This document shows positions 10,025 through 40,668 of a DNA stretch of 64,000 nt, in pieces (within the stretch, counting starts at the first letter, position 1; each line of letters opens with the position of its first letter). The translations under genes were made by a program, and so were the position numbers. This DNA comes from Tetraselmis striata (Eukaryota; Chlorophyta; Chlorodendrophyceae; Chlorodendrales; Chlorodendraceae): assembly GCA_006384855.1 (NCBI GenBank), contig VCJN01000322.1, positions 145,796 through 209,795 on the forward strand, written 5' to 3'. The notes under the pieces were generated by a model. It had not been told where the DNA came from. It ran no database searches and saw only the letters and a program-made list of their open reading frames with translations.

Positions 10025-13000
10025 ATGGCGGAACCCACAATGCAGCAAGTGGCTGACGCGGCCGCTGCCGCCGCCGAAGAGTCGCGTGTCGCCGCGGTGC
10101 ACCTCCAGCGCGCGTTCCGCGAGCGCCAAGCGCGACGCCGCGAGGCCGCCAGGCACTTGCGTCACCTGATATTCGGCCGGGCCTCGCCCACCGACACGAT
10201 CACGTACGTGCTGGAGGAAATGCGGAGCACTGATGACGTCGTGGATGGCCCACGTCATCCGCCTGGCCAGCCCGGCTTCAAGTGGACACCCGACAACGAC
10301 TTCCGCGAGGTGCTGGGCACCAACGTTCTGGAGGGACACGAACAGCTGTATGTCAGGTGAGGCTGGGCGATGAGCCCCTGAGTCCAGGTTGCTGTGGTTG
10401 GCCGCCTTCTTTATTCGTGCCGTATTATGTATAAGAGTAGCGACTAGCAAATATACTATATCTACACCTAATAAACAGCTTGTGTCACCCTCCGTCACCC
10501 CTCATCGCGTTCCATCGGTGCTATGTATACCGCATAAACGCACTCCGCAAGTGCCACACACCGCCAGCAGCTGCTGGACCGGGCACACAGTGCGCCGGCG
10601 CCACCCCTCTCACCCTCCCACAGTGTTATTTCGTGGCACGGGGAACCTCGACGCACCTCTACTTACTCCGTAATCCAGGAGGACAACCAAAACCATAAGC
10701 CATCGCAACCCTATTGGAGCAAGTGTCCGAGGCACCTGGCTGCATGCTGATGAGCTCACACGGCGCGGGGGGCTGCCATTCAAGGGACATCGTCATCATC
10801 ATCATCATCATCATTATCATTATCATTATCATTATCATCATCATTATTGATGATGATGTCATTGCCACCATGTATTGCCATCATCACATTCACCTGGTGG
10901 AATGGTCTGGTAAAGCTAGTGAGGAGCCAGGGAAGGGAAGCAGTATTTTTGAGGTAGTCTGTGGATGTGCTGGTCGTCTCTACCTGTAGCCACCATGGTC
11001 CAGCATTCCTAACCAGTGACTCGCACTCCGCGAAACGACAGACCCATGGCTGTCATGTTGCTCTTATGCCCTTTACGCATGCCATTCTTCTGCGCGTGCG
11101 CTTTCTAAGGATGTGCTGCACAGGTACGCCGTGCTGGAGGAGGCGATTGCTCGGCAGAATGGGGTGGCAGGTGACGAGGAGCGCCCGCCAGCGAGGCAGA
11201 GCCTGCTGAGCTGGATTACTCGCGGCGCGTTGGGTTCCGGGGAGATGGTGTTTGTGCAGTGCATCCACGACATTCGGGAGGAGCTGGAGCGCCTGGATGC
11301 GGAGTTCAAGGTCAGCATCGCCGCGCTGACGTCCACGGTGGACAAGCTGAAGGAGGAGGCGACGCCCAGGCCGGTGCTGGGGCGCGGGGTGTACGAGCGC
11401 GAGACGATGGAGATTCTGCACAAGGGGCGGGTGCGCGGGCTGAAGAACGCGCTGAAGGATGTGTACAAGAAGACATTCATCCTGATCCAGGTGACCCGGA
11501 GGGGCAGCGGCCAATGCGGAGGCCGGCCGGGCCTGCTGCGCTGCGCCAGCCGTGCTAGACGGGTGATGCGGCAGGCGCAGAGCGGGGACAGCGCCAGCCC
11601 GGCCAAGCAGCTGCTGGCGGTGCTTGGCACTGGAGGACTGCTGTACAGCAGTATGCTTAGCAACGACGGAACGCGATGAGGGGAGCCACTGGGAGACGCA
11701 AGCCGTTGCTTAGGGTTGAATCTAATGTATAGAGTTGTAGCTGGGTCCCGGAGGGTGTTGACACGCTGATTCAACGCCCCGCCCTGACTGGGTCCTGTGT
11801 CTCTATGTGTCACTCTTGCAGGCGAGCAGCCTGAACTACGTGGGCCTCCGCAAGCTCCAGATTCGTGCGCAAGAAAAACTTGGCGCGGACTTGGCCGCCA
11901 AGGCAGCGCTGCCCAGCCGGGAGGAGCTGCGCCAGCGGCCATTCTTCCTGCAGAGCTCTGACTCCGCCCCGCCCTCAACCCAGGCCTTCTTTGACGCCAT
12001 ACATGTGAGCGCCCTTCGATGCATTGCCAAGCGACTAACACACGTGGACATGGGTGCTCACCTGCGTCCGACATTTTCTGTATACACACTCTTGAGCCGG
12101 GATGCTGCCGGCCGCAAACGGCATGGCGCTTGCAGGAGGTAGAGAAGATCTACGCCAACATGTTTGAGCTGGGCGATATGCAGAGGGCCCGTGGATACCT
12201 GCGCAGCTTCCGCGAGGAAACCGCGGACAAGCCCCAGGTCCGTATCTGTAGAAAAACAATATGCTGGCCTGTCTTTCTTCTCAGGGCATGGATGCCCGCA
12301 AATACATAGGGTCAGCAGCCCCTGCCGCCCTGGAATGCATTTGCATGAGTGATGTCTCTCAGGTAAATCAAAATAATCTACTCCGGAATAAGTTCCACTA
12401 TTAATATGAACTAACTTGACAGTTGAATCAGCGATGCGTCGATTTTTCAGAAAATTTTAAAGGAACGGGTTCTATATCACTGGCCTACAGTTCCATGAAT
12501 TGCATTGCCAGCGCTTTGAAGTACCAGAGTTTTTTTTTCCATTACCAGCAGCGAGTAGCGAGTACCAGTCCCAGCAGCGAGTAGCGAGTACCAGTACCAG
12601 CAGCGAGCGTTTGCATTGCCAGCCCTTTGAAGTACCAGAGTTTTTTTTCCATTAGCAGCAGCGAGAAGCGAGTACCAGTACCAGTACCAGCAGTACCAAC
12701 AGTACCAGCAGCGAGTAGCGAGTACCAGTTCCAGCAGCTAGCGTTCGCATTGCCAGCGCTTTGAAGTACCAGAGTTTTTTTTTCCATTACCAGCAGCGAG
12801 TAGCGAGTACGAGTACTCATAGCCTCCCAACCGTGAGATCGTAATCGGACGGCTGTGTAATTAAGGACCGTGGGCGGGCGGGCGGGTGGGCGGGTGGGTG
12901 GATTATAGTACTTAGTATTACATGCCGGTAGATAAGCGCTTTAGTCATGCACCTGTAGGCCCGATCCGCTGCACTGTACGGGTACCCGTACGGCAATAAA

Positions 13001-13915
13001 GCTGACCGCCGAAAAACCGACGCTTCGCTGGATTATATATTTTTTCTCCTGCCTCTGCTTTGGGTTCTGTCCCGATGGTCTGAGCTGAATAGCATGGCCG
13101 ACGACGCGCATGTCCTCCTTCCAATGTCCATGCCATGTGCCCTGGTCGGCATGCAGGAATGGAACTATGTGTAAGGGGCACCCCGTAACGTCGCCCACTG
13201 CCTCTGCGCTTGTGGCAGGTGTTTGTCATGGGGCTCCAGATGGGCGCCAGCCTGGTGCTCCTGCTATGGGCCGTCTGGCTGATGGCGATGCCGTTCTACG
13301 CCGACCTTGACTGCCCTTACTGCACGCAGTACCTGTCCGCCACGCTGCCCGTGTTCCGCATCTTCCTGGTCCCGGTTGCCGGCTACTGGGCGTGGTGCTT
13401 CTGCGTCCGAGTCTTTGAGAAGCAAAACATCAACTACATTGTGCGCCGGCCCTCACCACGCGCTCCGACGCCGTTCACTCCCTGCAGCTTCCACCCCCAT
13501 CGGTCGTGGCTACCCCCCTCCCGACATACACGCATTGCCCAAATTGCAACCGACTTTCCCAACGTCATCGACTCCCATCTGCATGAGATGTTTCCGGCCC
13601 GTTTTAATGATAACATCCCTTCGTTGTTGGCGGGTGTCCGTTAAGAGCGAGTCCCGGGTGTGGCTCCACTAGTCCCTCATTATCACAACGCCGTAACGAG
13701 TGGGCGCTGGCCACGCAGTACGTGCTTCACATCAGCGCCTTCCGCCACAAGAGCAGTTTCCGCCACTTCAAGGGCGCCGTCAACAGCCTCACGGTGTGGC
13801 TGGCGGCATTTGTGCTGTACGCGGCGGGAATCCGCACTGGCGTCTATCTGGTGCGCTGCCTGGCGCTCCGTGGTTTGTATCTTTGCTCGAGCCCCCCATC
13901 CCCCCCACAAACACA

Positions 13916-13964
<49 letters not shown>

Positions 13965-16342
13965 TGTGCCAACGCCCTGACAAGGGTGTGTCTCTTTGCT
14001 CCGGGCAAGTGAACCGAGGCTAACACATACGCTGCGTGCTCCTGCAGCTTGTCCCGCCCACAGTGTATCCCCTCGCTCTCGTCATTGCAGCGACTGTGTA
14101 CATCCTCTGGCCGCCCGGCGCCAAGAGCCCAAAAAGCTACTTCTGGCCTGCTCTGGCAAACACCGTCATCCGACCTTTTGGCAAGCCGGTGCCCCCCCTC
14201 CCATGCTTCATGGACGAGCGCCTAAGGGCGGGCCTAACCTACACGTCCCGCGCCGTTGCCGTTGTTGTATGCATGTGCATTGCGCTGGTGGGGAGCCCGC
14301 GGGTCCTGCCTGATGTCTTAACCACCCCCCCTCCCCACCCCTTGTACTCCAATATCTGCCCTGCAGGTGACTTTTGCCGAGAATTTGGTGGCCGACATGT
14401 TGACAAGCGCCGTCATTATCCTGCGGTGAGACCCGTTTGCCTCGCGTGTCTTGCGCCCCAAGTTTCACTGTCAGCCTGTTCACGCGCAGGCGGGGCAGCC
14501 TGCGAGGGGCTGAGCAGCAAACCGTGCCTGACTGACCAAACGTTTCCTGCGTCTCAGTGACATGGGCACGACCATCGTCTTCTACATTTACGGCGGGCTC
14601 TACGACATCCCCACCACTGGTGAGCGCCAACTCCACCATTGCTTGCAAAAAAAATCTCGGTGCCCAAAAACGATGTCATTCTTCAGGGTGTCTGCGGTGA
14701 TGCCACACGCCGATGACACCGCGAGTGCTATAATAAGCTGCGTTGCCAGAAAGGAACGCGGCGCTGTGGCCAAATCAATAGGGTGCGCCGATACAACGCT
14801 GATGGCGGGCCTGAGAATGGTGGTGATGTGTGTGCGATCGTGGCAGACCCGCCAGGATGGTTGAAGGAGATCCAGGGCCCACTGATCACGATGCTGCCCT
14901 ACTGGTGAGCCCCGCTAGCGTGTCACCGCGAGCAGAAAGCCGCCTTGAAGCCTCGGCCGCTCTGGCCCGCTGACGCCATGCTCGGGCCGCGCAGGTGGCG
15001 CTTCATGCAGTGCCTGCGCCGCTGCTATGACGCGCCTTCCTTTCGGGATGCCATCCCGCAGCTGATTAACGCCGGCAAGTACGCCATTTCCCTGGTCTCC
15101 ATCACCATGGCTGTCATCGGCTGCGAACACGGCTGCTCCCACTTCTACACGGACAAGGTAAGCCTAGGCGCTTGCTTGGCTTGGCCTTGGTCGCAGTCCC
15201 GCGTACACTGCCATGTCGCGCCTTGCTGCTTGCCTCATGTTGTCCACATTCGCCCTCGGCGGACGTGCATGGTTGTCCTGCAGGGACAATGGACACTGGG
15301 GCGCTGCGTCTGGTTCACGGCCCTGGTGTGTGGGACCATCTACTCGTACATCTGGGACATCACCATGGACTGGAGCCTCTTTCAGAAGGTACTCGTACCA
15401 AAGCGGAGCATCCCCGCATGGTCCTTATCACACCTGTGTGCTGCCTTCTTCAACGCCTCCTGACACACACGTGCTGTGCCGCAGTCACCGGACGGGCGGC
15501 GCTGGTGCTGTGGCTTGCTCCCAGTGCTTCAGCTCCGGCAGAAGCGCGGATTCAAGTGGGAATGGTTCTATTACTGGGCGGCTGCCTCCAACCTCGTGGG
15601 CCGCCTGTCCTGGGCGCTGTCCATCAACCCAAACTCGATCACCGCCCTGAGCAAGAGCACGCCCCTGCTGACCTCCCCTCAGGTATGCACCACCCTGCCC
15701 TTCCCGCCCCTGCATGTGCAACACAATACATTGCCGGCAGACATAAGAGGGGTACATGCTCCGTGAGTCATAAGCGGTCCAATGCGTATACGGCCACGCA
15801 GTTCGTCCAGCAGTGATGCCTTAGTCCCACCTGTACGCTTGGACATCTATGCTACGTATCGAAGCAGTGAGAAATGTATGTATGTCGCTGCAGTGTCAGA
15901 CAATGTTATACCTACTTTCAGATGTGCACCGTTTCGTATGCCCACGTGATAATGTTGAGGTCACGGCTATAGCCTTGTCTACGCTGACGGCGTTGTCTAT
16001 ACATCCGCATGTCCGTTCTTGACCTGCGGAATGAATGCTCCGCAGGTCCGCACCACCCTGGTGGCAGTGGTTGAGGTGCTGAGGCGCGGGCAGTGGACAA
16101 TGCTCCGCGTGGAGAACGAAGTCCTGGGCAATGTGTCGCACTACCGCGGCGTCAACGACGTGCCCATCATGATTACATTCGCGGAAATGACTATTGGCAA
16201 AGCCAACATACACGCTCAATCCCTGAAGCGCGAAGCGCGTAGGCTTACCACAAAGGACGCGCTTGCCGGCGTGCTGGCGATACTTGCCGCCGTCGGAGCT
16301 GCTACTGTGGTGTACCTTGCGGTCACCCAGAATCACGGGTAG
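10025..16342 (+). CDS. SPX-EXS phosphate exporter, PHO1/XPR1-type
   Basis: This is a membrane phosphate transporter of the PHO1/XPR1/SYG1 family, in which SPX domains sense inositol pyrophosphates. Fifteen exons give about 863 residues: 10025-10356, 11124-11490, 11822-12004, 12136-12237, 12285-12362, 13219-13440, 13719-13850, 14048-14188, 14367-14425, 14558-14619, 14754-14904, 14995-15157, 15284-15388, 15485-15682, 16046-16342. SPX covers about residues 102-300 and includes LNYVGLRKLQ. EXS begins with a membrane helix at 13219 and contains LPYWWRFMQCLRRCYD, LINAGKYA and WDITMDWSLF, the family hallmarks. An IQ-like motif (residues 27-37, LQ-x3-R-x4-R) precedes SPX. The start could instead be 9836, which adds 63 residues. 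The acceptor at 14754 is the weakest junction. The expected PEW-type tryptophan of the first SPX helix is replaced (EGHEQLY). The gene ends at TAG 16340-16342. Confidence 0.94.
10791..10858 (+). repeat. Trinucleotide/hexanucleotide microsatellite (ATC/ATT)
   Basis: About 68 bases of tcatca and ttatca units lie in the first intron of the SPX-EXS gene. The region translates to runs of Ile or Met and is not coding. Confidence 0.9.
12427..13033 (+). mobile_element. TIR element with internal minisatellite, copy 1
   Basis: It lies inside intron 5 of the SPX-EXS gene. The left end atcagcgatgcgtcgatttt is an imperfect inverted match of the right end, which reads atccagcgaagcgtcggttt on the other strand. 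The interior holds tandem units containing gcattgccagcgctttgaag and agcgagtagcgagtaccag, then a GGGCGGGC-rich stretch. No open frame for a transposase is present, so it is non-autonomous if mobile. Confidence 0.8.
13918..13963 (+). repeat. (CA)n microsatellite
   Basis: About 23 CA units lie in intron 7 of the SPX-EXS gene. Confidence 0.95.
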
Positions 16343-17329
16343 CGGTGCTCCTTCTGCATTGCTATGCCAGTCGCCGTCACAGAGAAAATGGAGTGATCCC
16401 AGTCCAAGCATGTCCTATTGATGCCCCCCCCCCCCTTCTGGCTTTTAAATTAATCGGCAATGTAAGCAACTGGCTACGCGACTCTCCGTGCCGGTTTGGT
16501 GGTGCCCCGCCTCTTGTCAGCCAGCCATCTGGCAAGCAATCAGGGCCATTAGGGTGCCAGTAGCGACTTATTTTTCATTTTTCAAGCACGAGGCGCGGTC
16601 CGCCGGGAGGCCTCCAGTTATCCCGTACAAGTACTTCTCCATCTGGCATGGTGACGCACAGCGGACGTACGGATGAGAATTACAAACACGGATGGTGAGC
16701 TGGGAGTGGTCTTTGGTCTCAAAACAACCCGTGACCTTGCACGCAACTGGTTGAGGGACAATTGATCGCTGTGTGGAACACAGCGAAACTGGAAGATGGC
16801 AGGTTCAGCTGTTGCGCTCCTTTTATGTCTACCCGTCGCTGCACACGAACCGGCGCAGCGACGGGTGAACAAATAGCCCGTACCACTTAGCAGCAACTGT
16901 AGCCAGAAAGCAGATAGGAAAGGAGGAAACCCCATAAACTAGTTTATATCATACGTGAGCAGTACCCGTACGTACTATGGATCGGTTCGATGTGAGTGAC
17001 CGCCAATACTGTTCGCGAGCGTGAGTGCCTTGGGTGGATCTGGGCCTGAATCCCGTTCGATGCCACGGGGATGCGTGGGGCATCACGCACTACATGTCCA
17101 AGAGCGAAAGGTCAGACGCTCGACAAGATCCTAAGAACCAACCTACAGGTGGGATCGTTGAAGTCCCAGGGGTCGAATAACGGTGCCTGGCCTGTGCCAT
17201 GTGCTCGCCCATCCCTCCGCCCCCCCCCCACCCCCGGCGCACCAACTGCCGATGCGTCCGCATACTTGGTGCAACATGTGTGCACTCTTCCTTAGCGCTA
17301 ACTGAAGCGACTACACTTGCTATCAGCTT
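16343..17329. other. 3' flank of the SPX-EXS gene, no gene recognised
   Basis: Only short open frames without motifs are present. A C-rich tract occurs at 17221-17235. Confidence 0.4.
16461..16465 (+). terminator. Candidate polyadenylation signal TGTAA
   Basis: TGTAA is the usual polyadenylation signal of chlorophyte algae. This one lies 119 bases after the SPX-EXS stop codon, at a normal distance. The pentamer is short and could occur by chance. Confidence 0.3.
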
Positions 17330-18689: not shown

Positions 18690-19650
18690 ATCGTTGCGAA
18701 AACGAAGCGAAAACAGTACTTAGGCTGTCCGGATCTTTATGGGCCGCTGGCCGCATTTCCGGAACAATAACAAACAGCCAAATAGCGGGGTGGTTCATTG
18801 GTTTCGGAGCAGCAGGATTTCTGCTGCATGCACCGCGCCGCCTTTGCAGCGTTCACATCGTACTTGCGCTGTTCGAACGCGGCGAAAATGAACTGAAATC
18901 AACATTCAGGCTGTCCGGAATTTTCCGGATTGATGTCAAAATATCCGGATATATATTACAAACAGCCAAGTAACGGGCTGTTTTCCTGGTTTCGGAGCCG
19001 CAGGATTTCTGATGCATGCACCGCGCCGCCGCCGCAGCGTTCGGAGCGAGCTTTCGCTGCCTAGCCAGTGCAAAACGAAGCAAAACGATGCTAAAGCTGT
19101 CCGGATCCTTTCGGATCGACGGCAGCATTTCCGGACTTACATAACAAACAGCCAAATAACCGGCTGTTTTACTTCTTTCGGAGCAGCATGATTTCTGCTA
19201 GATACACCGCGCCGCCGCCGCAGCGTTCGGAGCGAGCTTTCGCTGCCTAGCCGGTCCGAAAACGAAGCAAAACAATGCTGAACCTGTCCGGATCCTTTCG
19301 GATCGACGGCAGCATTTCCGGACTTATATAACAAACAGCCAAATAACCGGCTGTTTTACTTCTTTCGGAGCAGCATGATTTCTGCTAAATGCACCGCGCC
19401 GCCGCCGCAGCGTTCGGAGCGAGCTTTCGCTGCCTGGCCAGTGCATAGCGAAGCAAAACAATGCTTAGGCTGTCCGGATCCTTTCGGATCGATGGCAGCA
19501 TTTCCGGAGTTATATAGCAAACACCCAAGGAACGGGCTGTTTCACTGGTTTTGGAGCCGCAGGATTTCTGCTGCGCCGCGCCGCACCGCGCTGCGCCGCA
19601 ACGTTCGGAGCGTGCTGGCGTTGCTCACTGATTTTTTTGCTTGGATGAAA
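18690..19650 (+). repeat. Satellite array, about 186 bp period, five copies
   Basis: Each unit contains gaaaacgaagcaaaac, ctgtccggatcctttcggat, gcagcatttccggactta, aacagccaaataaccggctg, a ggagcagcatgatttctgct block and caccgcgccgccgccgcagc. Copies begin near 18690, 18880, 19070, 19256 and 19439; the third and fourth are nearly identical and the outer ones diverge. No protein-coding content was seen. Confidence 0.85.
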
Positions 19651-20962
19651 GCATGACAGGGTTGATTCGCTTATTCAACCTGTGCCGTTGCAAACAAGGT
19701 CGATAGCACAGGCATAGCTTGTCCACAAATTAGACTTGTATTGACTTGCACAGAAATCTTTGCATATTGATTGACCTAGATTGTTTCGGAGACCACTGTT
19801 TTTCCTTATAAATGGAAGTACGACGGGATTTGTTCATTAACCGGTGTACAACGGGGATGGATTCATGGAACGAACTCCCTCGGCACGAGGAAAGACTTGT
19901 ACACCACGCATTATGGCTGGAATGATGACTAGGTCGTACATACGAGATAGGTTGGTATGAATTCATATTGACTTGTGGTCCGCAACGAACTAACACGACA
20001 ATCGATTTAGTTTAGTCGTTTCAATTTTGTCGGATCTAAATATGGTTTCGGAGGGATGCAGAATAGGAGTAAAGGTTTGGGGCGGAACGCTGAATCCTCG
20101 TTTTGAAGGGGTCAAGTCCCTTAACACCATAACCATGCATGTTACGAACAACTTGACAATTTCTGTGAATCATCGCTGTCGTATCTGAATTGTTATTAGT
20201 AGTAGCCAGCGCAGAACGAATCTGGCAGCTGGCAGCAGCAAGCCATCATTACGCATCATCGTCGCTGTCATTTCCTTTACCCATGCGGAAAAAGATGCTG
20301 AAAATACTGGCTGTTGTGAGGAACAGACCCGGCTGCCCCCCTAGTTTCTAACAAGCGCACCGCGTTTCTAGACAGTCCTGGAGGCAGCCCCATGCCTGCT
20401 GGCAGTTTGGTCCCCTCACGGATCCAACTACCAATTACTAATCATTGTAACTACTACTCATTGTAACTATATCTGTTTCTTGGTCTTGAGCTTCTGCTGC
20501 CTCATCCTTCATCTCTGCAGAAAACCGGTGTGGCCCTGGCCCACAGGCCACCACCAAAACATTCCGTTTGGGTGTGCTCAGTGTGTTTTGCAGGACAATC
20601 ATTTTCAATGAATGAAGCAAGCACATGGCTCACATGCAGGTAATCCTCGCGTGGATTAGAAGCAGACGCACATCGCGCACATGGTGTTTGTGTGTGCCTG
20701 TGCAAGTGCGCCTATAGGGGGAGAGTGAGAGAGAGAGGAGGGAGGGAGAGAGGGAGGGAGCAGATGCCTTTGTGTTGCTGCCTGGGCTACATGGTATCAG
20801 CCTGGCACGTCGTATCCTGCCGGCTCTGCTGCTGAGGCTGCTACATGTACCAGCTGGTGCTAGGCATGCGACAACCTCGGAATGACACAACCAGCTGCTG
20901 GTTCAGTGGCAATGGGATGGAAAGCAATGAGGCGTGGAATTAATAACCACCAGATTGTCACA
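19651..20962. other. Spacer and distal 3' flank of the selenoprotein gene
   Basis: No gene was recognised. A GA-rich tract lies at 20718-20760. The right part probably contains the rest of the 3' untranslated region of the minus-strand deiodinase-like gene. Confidence 0.4.
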
Positions 20963-21041
20963 CTCTGCAGAGCTACTCAGGTGCGCAGCCGCCAAACGCC
21001 TTGGCTTTCAGCTGGCACAGTCATGTCTTTGCTCTGCAGAG
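20963..21041 (-). promoter_or_regulatory. SECIS element, form 2, in the 3' UTR of the deiodinase-like gene
   Basis: A SECIS recruits the machinery that reads UGA as selenocysteine. On the minus strand, helix I is a perfect 11-bp pairing of 21041-21031 with 20973-20963. The core has ATGA at 21024-21021 opposite TGA at 20979-20977, as needed for the non-Watson-Crick quartet. Helix II pairs GTGC-CAGC (21018-21011) with GCTG-GCAC (20989-20981) around one bulged C. The unpaired AAA at 21008-21006 lies 12 bases after the ATGA. A small apical helix III (GCCAA 21005-21001 with TTGGC 20995-20991) makes it form 2. It begins 33 bases after the stop codon at 21075. Every required feature is present at normal spacing. 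Confidence 0.9.
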
Positions 21042-21074
21042 CGGCGAGCAACTGCCTTAATGGCAGCCGCCCGC

Positions 21075-22849
21075 TTATCCTGTCCCAATGGAGTGTTGCG
21101 GTACAAGCGCCGCCAGCGCCGCCTCAGCTTCTTCCGCCAGAAGATCCACACCGCCAGCGGCGTCAGCGCGCTGCAGGTGCACCAGCAACCCATCCTGGAT
21201 GATGAAGAGGCGCTCGGGCCAGGCGGCGTAGGCATCCCGCACGACGTTGGCCATGCTGTCCACGACCACCGGCACCGCCCCAGCCAGCCCCTCTGCCTCT
21301 ACCATGGCGGTCGCCGCCGCGCAGCGCTCCTCTGCGATCGCATTGGCAGCACCCAAACAGCGCGTCAGCAGGTGAAGAGATCGCTGCAAGGCCGTCTTCA
21401 TCCCAGCCACAGGCCCGCGCGGCAGATGTGCTGCGCCCTTGGAACCTTTGTCATCGCCTGACCACACCGTGCTGGGTTTGAGAGCCATGTATGGCAAATG
21501 CCGAGACCTGCTGCGCTGCTGGCGTTGGGCCCATCCCAGCGGTGTCACCTTCCCGCCTTGGCGCCACTTGCAAGGATAATTATAGTTCCATTTTCAAAGA
21601 CGCCCTTCGCAACAAATGAAACGCCACCGCACAGCCCCACCACCTATAAGCAATCGACTGGAGCGAGCCTGCTGCCTCCCCCAATGTGCAGCACACTGCC
21701 ATCACATGCCGGCCAGCACAACCCAGCTGTTGCTTCCAAATTATGACAGTATTTTCGCAGTACGGACAGGTCATAGACACAGCCTGCGCACTGTCGTATA
21801 CACAGCTCTCTTAGGTTACCATCCTCCTGAATGGCCATTTCATTATCTTTGAGAAATAGTTTGGTATCTGCTCGCAATTGGTAAGCAACCCACAATTAGG
21901 GTTATCAATATATGCAAAATTATTTATCAGATAAAGTGACAGTTCCGATAAATCAGCCGTCCAAAAACACACAGCATCCCGGTGCACAAGCAGTGGCCGC
22001 CGTTCGCGGGGCTGCAGGCAGGGGGCTTTGATATCGTGCGCGCATGCGCGGGCGCATGTTTGTGTGTGTGTGTGGTTGTGTGTGTGGGTTTGTAGGGGGA
22101 AAGGGGGGGCGCACCAAGGCTCCGGTGCTGCCTCCGCGTGGTCACAACACTGCCAAGTCTCCAACCGTCAGTGGCGTGCGCCTCGGAGATGTACACCAGC
22201 AGGAAGTCCGCCACGGCCGACCACCGCAACACCAGCCGGGCGACGCCAGACATGGAGAAGCGGAACGGGGGTCAGCTGTAGCTGCCTGCGGCCACTACCA
22301 GTGGCCGGCCTGGGCGGCAGCGGTCCAACAGCCTGCCGGCAGGCGCTCCGTCGCGGTAATGCGCCAGTGGGGCGTTGGGGGCCACATCGCCCGCGCGCAG
22401 CCGTATCGGCGCTCGAATGTTGGTGCGGGAGAGGTACACCACGCTCTGCGCCACCTCTTCGTCGCCCACGTAGAAGTCGCGCACGCGCCAGTAGGCTGCC
22501 AGGCTGGCGTCGCAGGTGCAGAAGCCGGCGCGCTCCAGCACGCCGCGCTGCAGCTGACGCTCGAGCGCCTCGGGCGCCGGGAGGTGCTGGGAGTGGTAGA
22601 CATCGTACGCAGCCTGAGTTTCAGCGCTGTCGCGGGCTGTTTGCTCCGCTCGCAGCAACGCAAGAACGGCGGCGCGCGGGGTGATGGCTGGGTCAAACGG
22701 CGCCGCTGAGTGGGGATATCACAGCAGCCGCTGCAGGGCGGCCTGGCCCTCGCCGTCTGGCGCCGCCAGGAAGGGCGGCGACAGCGCCAATGCCACAAGC
22801 GTGCCTTGTGTGTCCATCCGCACCTCCGCCACCACGGGAATGGGGCCAC
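21075..22849 (-). CDS. Iodothyronine-deiodinase-like selenoprotein
   Basis: This is a thioredoxin-fold selenoenzyme. Animal relatives remove iodine from thyroid hormones; the algal substrate is unknown. Exon 22849-22115 joins exon 21331-21075 in frame at QHRSL/EERC. In order the sequence shows a GRPLVVAAGSYS block, UGA, PPFRF, DFLLVYISEAHATDGW, then AVPVVVDSMAN and PERLFIIQDG, which are deiodinase signatures. The UGA at 22274-22272 stands exactly where deiodinases have selenocysteine (GSxxU-PPF). The downstream SECIS supports decoding. The stop is TAA 21077-21075. The first in-frame ATG is at 22817 (319 residues, Sec at 182); 22849 is an acceptor, so upstream exons may exist. A second in-frame UGA at 22721-22719 interrupts the N-terminal part, and no Met lies between it and the Sec codon. 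The usual Gly-rich tail after IIQDG is missing. Confidence 0.9.
22272..22274 (-). other. Selenocysteine UGA codon
   Basis: TGA is followed without interruption by PPFRF and the rest of the deiodinase domain, and preceded by GSYS in the same frame. Reading it as a stop would remove the second half of the active-site domain. Confidence 0.9.
22719..22721 (-). other. Second in-frame UGA in the deiodinase-like gene
   Basis: It is 447 bases (149 codons) upstream of the Sec codon in the same frame, between QAALQRLL and YPHSAAPFDP. It may be a second Sec codon, an intron-borne stop bypassed by splicing to the acceptor at about 22711, or an error. An intron confined to this spot would be 17 or 48 bases, too short for this genome. 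Confidence 0.6.
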
Positions 22850-23066
22850 CTGCATGCAGGCATCCAGTGAATCACCCGCCTGCTGACGATGCCATAGCAG
22901 CAGTGGTTTTGCGGTAACAATGACAAACAGGTGGCCCATAGCGACATAGGGGACCGAATATCTATTTATAATCACAATTACATACCGGTAAGGGTAATGG
23001 TTTTATGTATGTGTGAAGCACATGATATGTGCCGGCGACAAATTTGCAAAATATAAACAATGACCA

Positions 23067-23099
<33 letters not shown>

Positions 23100-23923
23100 T
23101 GTGTGCAGCTAAATGCTGGCGGCAATGAACAAGCTGTGGTGGCTGTACCCATCCACCTCATGTTCATGAGCAACTGTAATAAGAGTGCAACAATTGGAAC
23201 ATGAAAACCCCTGGGTGCTCCACGCACTGACGCAGGCTGCCAGGTCAAGACAGACTGCGCGGCAGCCGCACCGTTATGAAACATGATCAGATGTGTATGG
23301 ACAGCCCAGTGACATATGTTTGCTAGGAACAACATAGGCATGGACACCCCACACTTAGAGCTGTAGTTCCGGGAGTTACAAATCTTCATCATCGTCATCA
23401 TCATCAGGCAGGCAGGCAGGCAGGCAGGCAATTCTACATTGAATTTGTACATATCAAATACTCTCGGGGATCAATAATTTCTGCACGGCATCTTCTATGA
23501 TAAGCGTGCTGATTGATACTCTGGTTATATATGCGGAGATAATAAGTTTCCTCAAAGATTACATATATGAGGGAACATGAAGAACAGTATATGATTCCAG
23601 AACGAATATGTAACTATCCGAATCACATATAAAGGAATCACTATGAGCAATACTGCACAATACCTGCAAATCTCTGATGGTGTGACAATGGATAGATACA
23701 GCCACGGACAACCTGCCAAGACCTGCGTAATACTGCTCTGTACCGTTATGTTACTGGTGTTTTTTCCACATCTAGCACCGAAGCTATTTAGAATTAAGCC
23801 CCCTTGTTCAAAGTATCGAGCTGTTAACGGTTTGATGAATGCCGTGCGCGAATCCCTGTGGCAATCAAGTATTGTGGCATGGTCCGATGGATGTGTGTAG
23901 TACGGCATGGCGCTCAGTGGACT
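22850..23923. other. Upstream region of the selenoprotein gene
   Basis: No further exon was recognised. It holds a (GT)n tract at 23069-23098 and a (GGCA)n tract at 23406-23429. The promoter or a first exon of the deiodinase-like gene may lie here. Confidence 0.4.
23069..23098 (+). repeat. (GT)n microsatellite
   Basis: About 15 GT units lie upstream of the selenoprotein gene. Confidence 0.9.
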
Positions 23924-26900
23924 TCATGTGGGCGGCTCGAGAGGGATGACCTCACCATGACTGCTCTCAGGGATAGCTGGATAAAGGTTGACGTGGCCCT
24001 GCCGAACGCCATCCAGTGTGAGGACTGCGCGGCGGCCGCCACCGGCGATCCCGACCCCAACCACGCTGCCCTGGGTGGCAGCCGGTGGCGAGATGGCGGC
24101 CTCCCCGCAGCCCCGTGCCAGCGACCTGATGCTGAGGGTGCCATCACCACTGGAGTACTCCACCAGCGAGGTGGCGTTGGGGCCGCAGCTGCGGAAGCCC
24201 AGTTGGACGGTAGCGCCCCTTGGCAGACACAGGATCTTGACTTCAAAGTAGGCGCCCTCGCAGCCCACGTCGAACGGCCTGTTGGATGTGGCGCTCACGC
24301 TGCGCGGCCTGGCCACACAGCAAGCGGACAATGCGAGCAGGAAGAGGCAGCGGGCTCAGCATGGCTATGTGTGCTTTCCGTCCGCACATGCAAACCAGAA
24401 ACCAGGCGCACGTAGGCGCTAGCGCAACTGCAACCTGCCTTATGCGACGCCAAAGTCACAGATGCAAATGTTGAAGTTTGGCTGAAGCCAGCTTATCAGC
24501 GTCATGGATACAGACGATGAGCATGCACACATAGCGAACGCGTTTCAGATACCAGATAAATCCGATGTGTGTGTCAATTGCACGGTCCCACGCCCTGCCG
24601 CTACGCATGATGGCAAGTATCGATATCGTTTGGATCGGTGAGGGAGATCGAAATTTGTAGCCCGGGCAATATAGTGCCACGCAATGCTGCTGTTGATGTG
24701 TCAGCCCGGGGTGGGGTAGGGGGGGGAGAGGGGGGGGGGGGGGGGGGGGGGGACAGCTCATCACCATGCAAACATTGAGATGGCCAATAAAAAGGCGGCG
24801 CGCACCTGCTGGCCACACACTCCACTACGTTGGCAAAGATTTCGAGTTCGCTTGGGCTGGAGGTGACCATTCGTAGCTGCCCCCCGCCACTGCCTGGCAA
24901 TGGTCCGGTAGCATGGAGGTCCTCGGAGCCATCTCCGTTAGGCGACTCAGGTTTGAGGCTGCTCTCTAAATCGCTGCTCCCACTTTCCCAAGGCTTATTG
25001 TGGTGATGAGAGGCAGCGGTAGGCTGACCGGGGTGGTTGTGGTCACCCAGACGAAGCGCATCCAGCGCCTCCCTAGGTGCCCGAGGGCGCTCAATGCAAC
25101 GGAACAAGTCCCTTGCCCACACCTGCCCCGCAGACTGGGAATGGCATCGCTGGCAGAGGTCAAAGTCGCGGCGGTCGCGTGACTGGAAGCGCGGCCCGAT
25201 GATGGGGTCCATGTCGCAGTTGTCACAGGCAATGCCATGGTGAACGGCCAGCGCACTTCCAGAACCTGGGCAATCGTTGGGCCTGGGCTCCTCCGGGCTG
25301 CTGCTCGCCACATCCATCCTGGTCGCCCAGGGTCCATTGATGTCCGCTCTGTTCAGGAAAACCTGTGGGCTGCTACTCGGCACATCCATCCTGCAAACTG
25401 GGCTTGAGTCTAGCGACCATCTTTGGGCTTCTTCCAGGAAATCCTCCGGGCTGCTGCTCGCCACACTCATCCTGGTCGCCCAGGGTCCATTGATGTCCGC
25501 TCTGTTCAGGAAAACCTGTGGGCTGCTGCTCGGCACATCCATCCTGCAAACCGGGCTTGAGGCTAGCGACCATATTTTGGCTTCTTCCAAGAAATCCTGT
25601 GGGCTGCTGCTTGCCACACTCATCCTGGTCGCCCAGGGTCGATGGAGGTCTGGGTTACCCAGGGAATTCCATGGCCGCCTGGCTGGAACATCCAGAAGCT
25701 TGCGCCTCTGCTCGTGCTGCAGCAGCTCATAGCACACGTTGCAGGGGCAGCCGTTGGAAGGACCACAGCGGCCATCACAGCCTCCGCACCTGTGCGGCAG
25801 GGGGGGTATGTTGCATGAGTTAACATGTGACAAAGTCTTGGCATGAATCCAATTGGGCTACCCAACGTCGTCGTATCACTAGCAGCCTGGGATCGGACAA
25901 TAAAGTACGACCTTAGACTCCGACCTTGCTGTATTGCAGTGCAGAAATGTGCCAAATGTGTGAGATGGCGAACATCAGAAAACGCTGGCCACAGCTAGCT
26001 TTCGCCTTCGAAGTTGTCTTTCTCAGTGTCATGCAATTCAAGAACACCAGAAATATCAGGTCGATGATGTGCGCCCCCCACCCCCCCTGCCCCTGGGTCT
26101 GTAAATACATAGTAATGGTAAGTAGCTAGATATATCGTAATTACTGGTTTACGGCACCTAAAGATTTACTCGATTAAATCGACCCCCTCCCTGGCTGGCC
26201 TCCCTGGCGCGCTGCGCGCGGAGCACGGGGTGTCTCCGTGCTCTAAAACTCTCGTACGGGTGCTTGCAGTACTGTAGATACAACTTGCTGCACACCGCGG
26301 GGAGGCGGCGCGGTGCGTGTTACTAACGCTACTGTCGCTGCCGGCGGCGGCATCGCGGCGGCGGCTATTTCAGCGGCGGGAGGGTACCCGTAGCTAGTGG
26401 GGTCCAGCCACAGGCCCACAGCACAGCGCCCTAATCCCTCGCGATAACGACCCGCGCTGGGTAGATGGAGTAGTGCCCGTGTCGATGCAATACCGTGATA
26501 ATATTCGAATCATTCACGAAACGGGCTATTCCCTCCCACGCGATGAATGTAATATTGCGCGGTCGCGCGGTCGTCGAGCCCATGCGACTGCGGCGCTGAT
26601 GAGCGCGCAGCGCACTCGGATACCTCGCCAACTACCTATCCTGGAAGCACTTCCGCCACCCGCCGGTGAGCCGGAGAGCGAGTTGCGAGCTGCGGCGATC
26701 GTCAGTTTGATTGTCACATCCACACGATCAGTGGCAGTTCGAAGCTGATACCAGGCAGTCCGAAATGACTGCATATCTATTAACCCTTTTTCCGGGGGTT
26801 ATGGGGGAGGGAAGCGGCAACCAAGGTGGTTTTGACGCCGATCTGCTGCCGATCACAGCGCTTTGCCGGCGCAACTGGGGGGGCGTGCTCGCGGCGGTAG

Positions 26901-34350: not shown

Positions 34351-34631
34351 CTGTGCGAGCTTCCCGCGGACCTCGCCAAATTCTGGTCCCCAGACCAACA
34401 CATCACACCCAAACCGCCCCGAACAACGACCTCGGCACCAAATGGCCGGCGGGAGTGTACTAGGTGGCTTCCGCCCCCTACCTCGCAAATGTCAACGCAA
34501 CAGAAGCTTCAACCAAGGTTGCCCTCAAGGTCTTTTACCCCGGCCGCACGCCGCACGCCACACGCCGCACTTCCGCCTAACACCACCTAACGACCAATAG
34601 TAGGCTCCGACACAGCAAGAGCCGCAAGAAC

Positions 34632-36060
34632 ATGCCCACGTCTTTCCATACCCGCCGCACTAAAACTCCGCCCACTGACGACACCAATCCCGTCCATACA
34701 ACCCTTGGAACGCTGGGACGACGCGAAACGCTTTCATACACCGACGGCTCCCGTATCCACCGCGGCGGAGTGGTGGGAATCGGCGCCGGGGTCTACACGC
34801 CGGGCAATAAACCCATCGCACTGGGAGCAAACGAACACGGAGTTCGCCGCACCATCACCAAAGCCGAACTGGCCGCCATATCGGTGGCACTCGAGTCTGA
34901 CCTCCCGAAAGACATCCTCTCATATAGCGCCGTCTCCCTTCACCTAATAGAACGCATGATGTACCGGCCGGTCACCTTACGACGTCACGCTCACAAAGTA
35001 CTACTCGAAAACACAGAACGCCAACTCCGACACCGAGCGGATTTGGGACTCCGAACCATCCTTTAGAAAGTCAAAGCCCATATTGGGGTCGAAGGCACAT
35101 AACAAGCCGACACCGCCGCCGGCGAAGTAGCCAATCGAACATACCACCTGGCACTATCGTAACCGTAGGCGCAACTCCCGAAATAGCCGATGACGTGTGG
35201 CTGAACCCATGCCAAGGCGCGCCGACCACCACTCACACACCCCACAAAAGTGAAAGCCGTCTGGAAACACGCCAACGCTACAGTAGGCTGCGACGCCTCC
35301 GACGAAACCCTACACTCCCACCTCATAGACCATGCGTTGGCCACATTTGTAATGCCGGAATTCGTCACCCCCGCGGACATTACCACCTCGGAAGGAATCC
35401 ACAGCCTGAATTCATTTGGGGAACAAACTCAAGCCGAATGAGACGCAAGGGCAAGCCGTCCTTCACACGCGGGAAGTGCGTCCATATGGCAGGCAACTGC
35501 CCCTCCATGGCCGGCCTTAAGACATACCGACATAATGGCATGCTTAAACTCCTCCTCAACGAGCTGGAAGTCACGAATTGCGGTCGCTAGCACGTACTGT
35601 CCACGGACGCGGGCAACAAACCTGTGGTTCACTTATCCTCCCCCAACAGAGACACCTTGATCTCCGACCTAGCCGACAAAATCACACAAACCCACTCCCG
35701 TGCATCAACATCCCCGGTGCCCAGCGGACGCGCAAGAAAGGGCAATTACATGTCCCTGCGCCGCCCCAGCTCCCACCCTGCTCCCCACGACCGTGCTAAC
35801 CCCCCCCCCCCCCCCCTTCAGCCCTAGACACTGCAAAGCCGGACGCGGTTCGCATTGTCGGATTCGACTGGGACCCGGCCACCGAAACCATATCTCCTGA
35901 TCCCATAGCAGTCCAAAAAATACAGATGATAAAATTCAAATACTGCACCGATCTCAATCATGCCACCGTACACTCTCTCATCCGCAAAAAATACCAACAC
36001 ATGGTGAGCGCCCAACGTCGACAAGGCTAGCAATGCCCGATTGAAATCACCCCGTCACCC
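34632..36060 (+). pseudogene. Degraded LINE remnant: RNase H and C-terminal region
   Basis: The RNase H core is clear (LSYTDGSRIHRGGVVGIGAG, then TITKAELAAISVAL), followed by VKAHIGVEGT with stop codons around it. Downstream are TYRHNGMLKLLLNEL and FKYCTDLNHATVHSLIRKKY, which resemble the C-terminal parts of LINE polyproteins from algae and protists. Stops at several points show it is dead. Its strand is opposite to that of the DIRS remnant on both sides, which suggests insertion into that element. Confidence 0.65.
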
Positions 36061-38894: not shown

Positions 38895-40668
38895 ATGCCG
38901 GCGAGGGGTGGTGGCCGGCGGGGTGGCAAAGCCGGCGGAGCGGCAGCCGCCGCTGCTGCTGCCGCCGGGGCGCCGCGCGAGCCGTTCGCCGACCCCGGCC
39001 TGCTCCGCTACGTGGGCGCCACGCTGGTGAAGCACTTCGACGGTGTGCCCTTTCGCGGCCGCGTCACCAAGCTGCACGCCACCTTCGGCTTCTACGTCGT
39101 CTACGAGGATGACGACTCGGTGCCCCCCCCCCCCCCCCCCCCGCCCCCACACACACCTAACACCCACATCTACCCGTTATCGTGCCGCAGTTGGGCAGAC
39201 TAGTGCGGCGGCTTTGGCTCGGCCTCTTATGAGTTCGCAGCCCCGGCACAGTATCCTCTCTCCCGCGCTATGTGCGTGCGTGCAGTCCTGCATGCGGGGG
39301 CATGCTGCATTCATTCAGAAACACTCTCACGTCCACATCTGGACGCGCTCCACGGCGTGGAGCCGCCCCCCCCCCCCCCCCCCCCCCCCCCTCCCCCAAA
39401 CATGGTAGCTGCAATTTCTTCATGTTGTATAGCGGCAGTTGCGAGGTTGCAGAAGTTGGGGCATCACCCGCACGGCACCCCTCCATTCAGCTTCCTCACT
39501 CCATCTGCCACGAGAGAGTGGAGGAGTGGCAGATGGGGGAGAGGGGAAAGGGAGGGGCGGAAGCGGGCTTGAGACGCGCTGCGCCTGGCGGGGATAAGGG
39601 GCTGCCAGGAAGGAGTGTGCCCCTTGTGGGCTACGCACATAGCGCCGCGCGATGCCTCTTGCGGCAGTGTGATGGGTTTTGTTGTGTCTGGAAGCGGCCG
39701 CCCTTGCGCACTGGGCAATGCCCCCCCCCCTCCCCCCGGGTGCCTTGCCCAGTCCCTGCCGTCGCTCATTGCGCTGCGCCTGGCAGGAGCACATGGGGCT
39801 GGAGGACTTGAAGCGTTTCATCGTGGAAGGGGATGGGGAGGGGAAGGAGGCAGAGGCGGCGGCGCCCTCTGCCACGGCCCTCACCAACGACAAGCGCGCG
39901 CGCGGAGCCAAGCCCGCCGCGAGCCCGGCCGCCACCCCGCCCACCGGCCGCGGCAACAAGCGCGCCGCGCCGGCGTCGCCTGGGGGGCAGGACGGATCCG
40001 GCAAGCGCGGCCGCCAGGGGTCGCCGTCCGCGCCGCCGCGCGTGGTGCGCGAGGAGACGGAGGCGGTGGCGCTGGTGGGCGCGGAGGCGGCGGCGGAGGC
40101 GGCTTTCCGCGCGGAGCACGGCGTGAAGCTGGGCGCCGTGAAGCGGGTGCACATGCCGCAGCCGCTGCCGGTCATGCTGCGCCACCACGCGGTCTGCAAG
40201 TGCTGGAAGTGCAAAGCCGGCATCGCCCCCGGCAAGGTGGCCTCCTTTGCGCTCACAGGCGCATGCAGGGCGCAGAGCCCCCTCCCCTCCCCTCCGTCCT
40301 CCCCCCTTCTCCATCGTTCACCTTCTCCTCCTGTCATTGCCAGGCCCGCATGCCTGACACATCTGCATTGGCGCGCAGATCAAGGGTGGAGGCCGCAAGG
40401 ACAATGCGGGCAAGGTAACAAAAGCAGGTAGGCAAGTGGAGCGGTTGCTGGGGCGGGGTGGGGGGGGGGGGGGGGTGGGGGGGGTGGGGTGGGTGGTGCC
40501 GAGGCACATATAAGAACCCTTCTTCTACGCCTCTAATTGGGCCTATGTGCAACATACAAGAACATTTGCCATAGTTCAGCTACAGTATCGATAACCTGTT
40601 ACATCTGGCAGACAGGGCATGCTCTTAATCGCAGTGTCCGTATTACCGCGCTGGCATTGGAGATGGCA

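Follow-up and report, generated by a model that had tools for sequence, protein, structure and literature searches.

Within the window, the whole stretch of 64,000 nucleotides analysed here (Tetraselmis striata, assembly GCA_006384855.1, contig VCJN01000322.1), the minus strand from 22817 to 21075 holds the coding region of a protein that matches the Pfam family T4_deiodinase (PF00837). The features of the locus, given in the direction of transcription, are as follows:

22963..22970, minus strand: TATAAATA box (TATA box), an exact motif about 150 bases upstream of the likely start codon, with a putative promoter role
22115..22817, minus strand: coding exon 1, from ATG 22817-22815, with two in-frame UGA codons; frame-0 coding signal from the ATG and a PF00837 match over the 3' part
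22719..22721, minus strand: upstream in-frame UGA, codon 33, read from the sequence, with coding signal on both sides and a dip directly after it
22413..22718, minus strand: remaining N-terminal region, without known relatives or a visible membrane anchor in profile, paralogue and hydropathy searches
22115..22412, minus strand: first part of the deiodinase (thioredoxin-fold) domain, matching the PF00837 profile from position 69
22272..22274, minus strand: catalytic UGA, codon 182, at the Sec170 position of mouse Dio3 by alignment to PDB 4tr3 and 9h48
21332..22114, minus strand: intron of 783 bases, GTGCGC...GATCGCAG, with CA repeats; the GT-AG, in-frame choice
21075..21331, minus strand: coding exon 2, with the UAA stop at 21077-21075; PF00837 E 1.1e-7, the joined match reaching position 215
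20959..21042, minus strand: type II SECIS element in the 3' UTR, by its fold, a published spacing rule and its scan rank

The initial annotation had described a deiodinase-like selenoprotein, and profile searches bore this out, the best protein match being the deiodinase family with Sec at the site. Exon 1 alone, with its UGA read as Cys, matched PF00837 with an E-value of 3.7e-23, and exon 2 also matched alone. Joined at 22115/21331, the exons gave a single match of 132.4 bits (E 2.2e-38; cut-off 27 bits), more than either scored separately (82.5 and 31.9 bits). Against the PDB, the joined protein matched mouse Dio3 (4tr3; E 4.9e-28) and mouse Dio2 (9h48; E 1.5e-22), and the NCBIfam deiodinase-like family NF038285 scored 49.8 bits, far under its 250-bit cut-off. 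The signatures EAHATDGW, PVVVDSMAN and PERLFIIQDG, which had been read from the letters, are all present in the translated frame.

The proposed junction at 22115/21331 proved to be the sole choice among 25 combinations of exon ends that has GT-AG borders and keeps the frame. Its letters are G/GTGCGC ... GATCGCAG/AG (slashes mark the exon borders), and it restores the family sequence HRSLEERCAAA, to be compared with HRSLEDR in Dio3 and HRNQEDRCAAA in Dio2. The donor resembles three of the four that were inferred for other genes here (G/GTGCG form), each of them placed at the point where family similarity ends. After the upstream UGA, the frame is open for 201 + 84 codons and is interrupted by the catalytic UGA alone. 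As to the extent of the gene, read on the minus strand of 20600-23300, the deiodinase frame described earlier is real, but the upper end given for it, 22849, is not an ATG, and coding signal starts near ATG 22817.

Catalytic UGA, SECIS element and host decoding

The in-frame UGA at 22274-22272 lies within GSYS-U-PPF, and translation and alignment place it at the Sec site of animal deiodinases, Sec170 in Dio3, as had been claimed; the reference structures 4tr3 and 9h48 themselves have Cys in place of Sec. A chance UGA at 22274 was rejected because the 201-codon frame has a family match on both sides of it. That the gene yields a functional selenoprotein of the deiodinase family, with Sec at 22274, we regard as very probable.

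In mouse Dio3 numbering, the residues conserved in the alignment are Ser167, Tyr197, Glu200, His202, Trp207, His219, Arg225, Glu259 and Arg260; active-site residues are discussed in this numbering in the accessible portions of PMC7506546 and PMC11592359. Thr169 is Ser in the alga, the proton-relay network is otherwise intact, and the spacing from Trp207 to His219 is 11 residues, the same as in Dio3. The helper cysteines of Dio1 and Dio3 are absent at the aligned positions, Cys168 being Tyr and Cys239 being Val; Dio2 is likewise described as having no proximal Cys in the available text of PMC11592359. Phe258 of Dio3 is Pro in the algal protein, and the alignments to Dio2 and Dio3 end before the Arg275/Lys241 clamp loop. 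With the Arg275 substrate-clamp loop outside the alignment, the algal enzyme may be unable to accommodate substrates of the thyroid-hormone type. Its substrate is probably smaller than iodothyronines or differently bound. From these residues we infer that the selenolate site with its proton relay works, relying on outside thiols.

A SECIS element had been reported 33 bases after the UAA stop; a type II element is present there, but the distance is 32 bases. It consists of AUGA at 21024-21021, then 12 nt, an AAA bulge and a 5-bp mini-stem, with an AA-to-GA distance of 28 nt, a UGA core that ends at 20977, and a long basal helix within 21042-20959. This layout satisfies the rule NTGA-(10-13 nt)-AA-(15-39 nt)-GA found in the accessible text of PMC2375036. 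Folded as 91 nt, the element gave a z-score of -2.28, with 3 of 200 shuffles equally good; shortening it to 76 nt, at the cost of part of the basal helix, gave -0.33, with 65 of 200 equally good; folding energy by itself is not decisive. Rfam did not detect the element here, at the gathering threshold or with E-values up to 10, and a genome search with RF00031, in which 133 of 1924 candidates were scored, listed one other sub-threshold place and not this SECIS.

A custom scan of both strands of the window, run with a script that makes fixed demands on core and helix, ranked the deiodinase SECIS second of 11 matches, at -38.3 kcal/mol; the best energy from six shuffled windows, each scanned on one strand, was -27.9. 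The top match, at 38896 on the minus strand, has better energy than the deiodinase SECIS; it is G+C-rich and was taken as chance, and no selenoprotein was seen beside it.

Sec machinery in the genome, on which the earlier reading depended, was found in the assembly (224,097,584 bases in 2903 contigs). Two genes for tRNA-Sec (anticodon TCA) are present, along with exons of SepSecS on two contigs, a match to part of domain 4 of eEFSec (E 1e-12) and one exon of SelD (E 1e-23; 84 bits, set against a whole-protein cut-off of 125). The genome also holds GPX in two copies, on two contigs and with a TGA in frame, and a SelW with CGGU. With tRNA-Sec, SepSecS, eEFSec, SelD, Sec-type GPX and SelW present, UGA is therefore expected to be read as Sec in this host. 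Downstream of each GPX gene, the custom scan found a SECIS-like element laid out like that of the deiodinase, its 14 nt from AUGA to AA being slightly beyond the spacing rule. The candidate for SelW is weak, at -20.8 kcal/mol, within the range of chance matches. The chlorophyll a/b-binding family was matched 63 times in the assembly; for one such protein, the best single LHC chains were 7d0j_S (443 bits) and 6kac_N (442), both from Chlamydomonas, behind two multi-domain LHCI chains. These proteins point to a green alga as the host.

The upstream UGA and the start of the protein

The initial annotation was right on family, junction and SECIS, but it overlooked an upstream UGA, an unfamiliar N-terminus, the loss of the helper cysteines and the published relatives. 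This second in-frame UGA, at 22721-22719, is codon 33 of a frame that opens at ATG 22817 and reaches the donor at 22114. The frame has no ATG between the two UGA codons, and the protein must therefore start before the first UGA or in another exon.

Coding potential was scored with two models, model A built from eight exons of other genes together with the deiodinase exons (1302 codons) and model B with the deiodinase left out of training. In model A, frame 0 of 22817-22722 scored +17.4 bits, and a sliding profile stayed positive from ATG 22817 until it entered the intron, with one exception, the 96-base scoring window that begins at the upstream UGA (-6.1). In model B, the same stretch exceeded 415 of 415 overlapping non-coding windows of G+C >= 0.6 and was beaten or equalled by 15 of 5000 shuffles; its absolute score was 0.3 bits, true coding windows having a median of 16.4 and a 10-90% range of -8.0 to 22.5. 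The model B test is noisy, because two undoubted stretches of exon 1 score -12.8 and -9.4. The stretch 22913-22818 has a non-coding score in all six frames.

The coding-like character of 22817-22722 in both models, the profile that is positive from ATG 22817, the non-coding stretch before it and the lack of an ATG between the UGA codons all speak for translation from ATG 22817, with codons 33 and 182 both decoded as Sec via one SECIS. Algal selenoproteins with several Sec residues have been published: the accessible text of PMC7539508 describes a UxxU SELENOW in Ostreococcus lucimarinus and a PDI_e with GUGUU, the latter not in Plantae, and that of PMC2375036 describes MSP with two Sec in Chlamydomonas, Volvox, Ostreococcus and Dictyostelium. 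Against decoding at both sites stand the low score of the block in model B, where single blocks are noisy, and the four codons directly after the upstream UGA, which score -13.2 bits in model A; TGATATCCCCACTCAG resembles an intron end. A Sec at codon 33 would also lie outside every known redox motif, and the searches turned up no N-terminal relative from which the proper residue at this place could be read. We hold the reading with two Sec tentatively, as plausible at somewhat below an even chance.

Were the upstream UGA intronic instead, the intron would extend from GAG/GTGCGG (22823) to CCCCACTCAG/CG (22706), and translation would start at ATG 22947 or at a later ATG in the same frame. The donor would have the G/GTGCG form seen in three of the four inferred donors, the splice would keep the frame, the acceptor has a pyrimidine-rich tract, and the TATA box at 22970 lies upstream. 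The 5' exon from ATG 22947, however, scores -48.5 bits as coding, the enclosed 22817-22722 carries the +17.4 bits in frame 0, and the nearness of GTGCG and CAG is in our judgement not rare by chance; we consider this intron a little less probable than decoding at both sites. The codon might also be a nonsense change of the strain or an assembly error in a gene with one Sec, or translation might begin at a non-AUG start downstream of it. One substitution would suffice, and no contradicting second copy was found (one search scored 40 of 1460 candidates), but the remaining gene is without decay, with all its open codons and its relay residues intact, which speaks against this reading; we hold it about as probable as the intron.

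Because the coding signal spans codon 33 and the rival 5' exon scores so poorly, we lean slightly towards reading through the upstream UGA as Sec. With the upstream UGA present, the 5' end given here is provisional, and the allele could be a broken one.

The N-terminal 135 residues are unfamiliar and match nothing found: there was no Pfam match, no match among the N-termini of 49 bacterial relatives and no significant paralogue in the alga's own genome, where two further matches had E-values of 1.2 and 4.4. A membrane anchor was not seen, the best 19-residue hydropathy being 1.02 in the first 140 residues; for the alternative N-terminus, constructed with one surplus Ser, the value over its first 60 residues was 0.92. 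This result would be different if a further exon lay upstream.

Genomic surroundings and relatives

In a PF00837 profile search of the whole assembly, the deiodinase gene was the only match. The DNA of 20900-22960 matched itself and, over 40-61 bases, seven other places, all at the CA-rich intron start; that of 10900-16400 matched its own locus and, among the 40 of 1460 candidates that were scored, a dispersed repeat. The repeat, of about 640 bases at 12399-13045, has other copies that are 75-98% identical, and it accounts for nearly all of the 48 match rows from the scored candidates. For SepSecS, and again for GPX, there are two very similar contigs, whereas these searches showed the deiodinase region only once; partial diploidy of the assembly may be the reason.

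Bacterial contamination of the contig was considered and rejected on the basis of the probable intron, the eukaryotic SECIS, the TATA box and an exon with an EXS domain (14909-15460, plus strand; E 1.5e-17), the last of which supports a eukaryotic origin of the contig. Bacterial-looking contigs do occur in the assembly, and one that carries bacterial-looking genes including a GPX is a probable contaminant. Elsewhere in the window lie a tandem array at 18695-19574 (186-base unit, 4.7 copies), a ZZ-type zinc finger at 24604-25857 on the minus strand (E 6.5e-9), in a stretch that includes a 153-base tandem repeat at 25289-25694, and a weak RNase H match, under the cut-off, at 34581-35063 on the plus strand (E 3.7e-4), possibly a retroelement remnant.

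Scanning a collection of genome contigs with the algal protein alone was unproductive. With an alignment that included mouse fragments, 263 relatives were obtained, and the best 80 of the 263, which were kept, are all bacterial by title. By residue pattern, 49 of these 80 loci were readable, and the other 31 were dropped as unread. The Sec site is TGA in 42 of the readable loci and Cys in 7. No relatives of the algal deiodinase were found in viral contigs and phages. In a maximum-likelihood tree, unrooted and with only three eukaryotic rows and long branches, the alga groups with mouse Dio2 and Dio3, apart from the 49 bacteria (100/99). A counterpart of His219 is present in 20 of the bacterial rows (19 Chloroflexota and one Verrucomicrobiota) and missing in 29, including all 13 Acidobacteriota rows, and because the residue splits the rows in this way the bacterial relatives may form two functional classes.

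Comparison with known deiodinases and proposed function

The algal protein shares with vertebrate Dio1-3 the family profile, the Sec site, EAHxxDGW, the proton-relay residues, the omega-loop length of Dio3 and Sec through a 3' UTR element, the last being reportedly how type I deiodinase receives its Sec. It differs from all three in having no anchor that could be seen, an unrelated N-terminal region and a second in-frame UGA, and from Dio1 and Dio3 in having neither the proximal nor the distal Cys; Pro takes the place of Dio3 Phe258, and the Arg275 loop did not align. Human DIO2 carries a second in-frame UGA close to the end of its frame.

The deiodinase homologue of Dictyostelium discoideum, by the description in the accessible part of PMC2375036, shares with the alga a unicellular eukaryotic host, Sec and a type II SECIS with an AAA bulge; the mini-stem is extremely long there, whereas it has 5 bp in the alga. 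Deiodinase (DI) appears in Table 2 of that paper in the Dictyostelium column only, with none in Ostreococcus or Thalassiosira. The available text of PMC7539508 gives DIO as one of 42 algal selenoprotein families, with Sec in 80% of its members; that text does not specify the algae. In the accessible portion of a 2019 Archaeplastida survey (PMC6627142), "deiodinase" occurs once, in the reference list. Bacterial deiodinase-like selenoproteins were described from Sargasso Sea and GOS data (PMC1088965 and PMC2398784, in their accessible parts). The alga shares with bacterial members the GSxTU motif, EAHxxDGW and Tyr at the site of the proximal Cys (35 of 49), and differs from them in its side of the tree, in its N-terminus and in His219, which most of them are missing. 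A deiodinase with two Sec codons in such a layout was not found for any alga in the accessible parts of the published selenoprotein literature.

We propose that the product of this nuclear algal gene is a soluble selenoenzyme with a thioredoxin fold, belonging to the deiodinase family (PF00837). To make it, the ribosome would decode UGA 22274 as Sec by means of the 3' UTR SECIS and the alga's tRNA-Sec, eEFSec, SepSecS and SelD. Genes or exons for these parts exist in the genome, and the machinery presumably acts on the deiodinase mRNA. In such an enzyme, the Sec of GSYS-U-PPF would adjoin the retained proton-relay residues, and its selenolate could attack a small phenol at an iodine or bromine substituent. 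A proton would come from the relay residues, and an outside thiol, suggested because the algal protein lacks Cys at both helper positions of Dio1 and Dio3, would reduce the selenenyl halide. Judged from the sequence, reductive dehalogenation, with a small halogenated phenol as the leading candidate substrate, has about an even chance of being the reaction.

Only a little less probable is that the protein is no dehalogenase and acts as a thiol peroxidase or another redox enzyme on the deiodinase fold. The family has a thioredoxin/peroxiredoxin fold according to the accessible text of PMC11592359, a redox role is proposed for bacterial members in that of PMC1088965, and both the missing helper cysteines and the unalignable clamp loop would agree with it. 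It is countered by the retained relay residues, including the His219 that is missing in 29 of the 49 bacterial relatives, and by the position of the gene beside the animal deiodinases in the tree. Much less probable, taken as one joint claim, is a deiodinase with two Sec in which one SECIS serves both UGA codons, the second UGA lies in a new, soluble N-terminal domain, the Sec of that domain or the nearby Cys100/Cys102 pair does the resolving in place of the lost helper cysteines, and the alga's own halogenated phenols are the substrate.

Since deiodinase-family selenoproteins have been described before from algae, Dictyostelium and bacteria, the find is less surprising than it would otherwise be; the Tetraselmis gene adds a member to the family. 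What is unfamiliar is the front part of the protein and the second possible Sec codon; if this second UGA is indeed decoded, it would be an added case of several Sec residues from one SECIS. A gene finder that treats UGA as a stop would cut the gene. Here a Sec-containing deiodinase-family gene, relay residues included, is found in a eukaryote that photosynthesises and is not known to produce thyroid hormone; in the tree the gene stands with the animal enzymes, away from its bacterial relatives. The original substrate of the family would therefore be testable in a potentially culturable cell.
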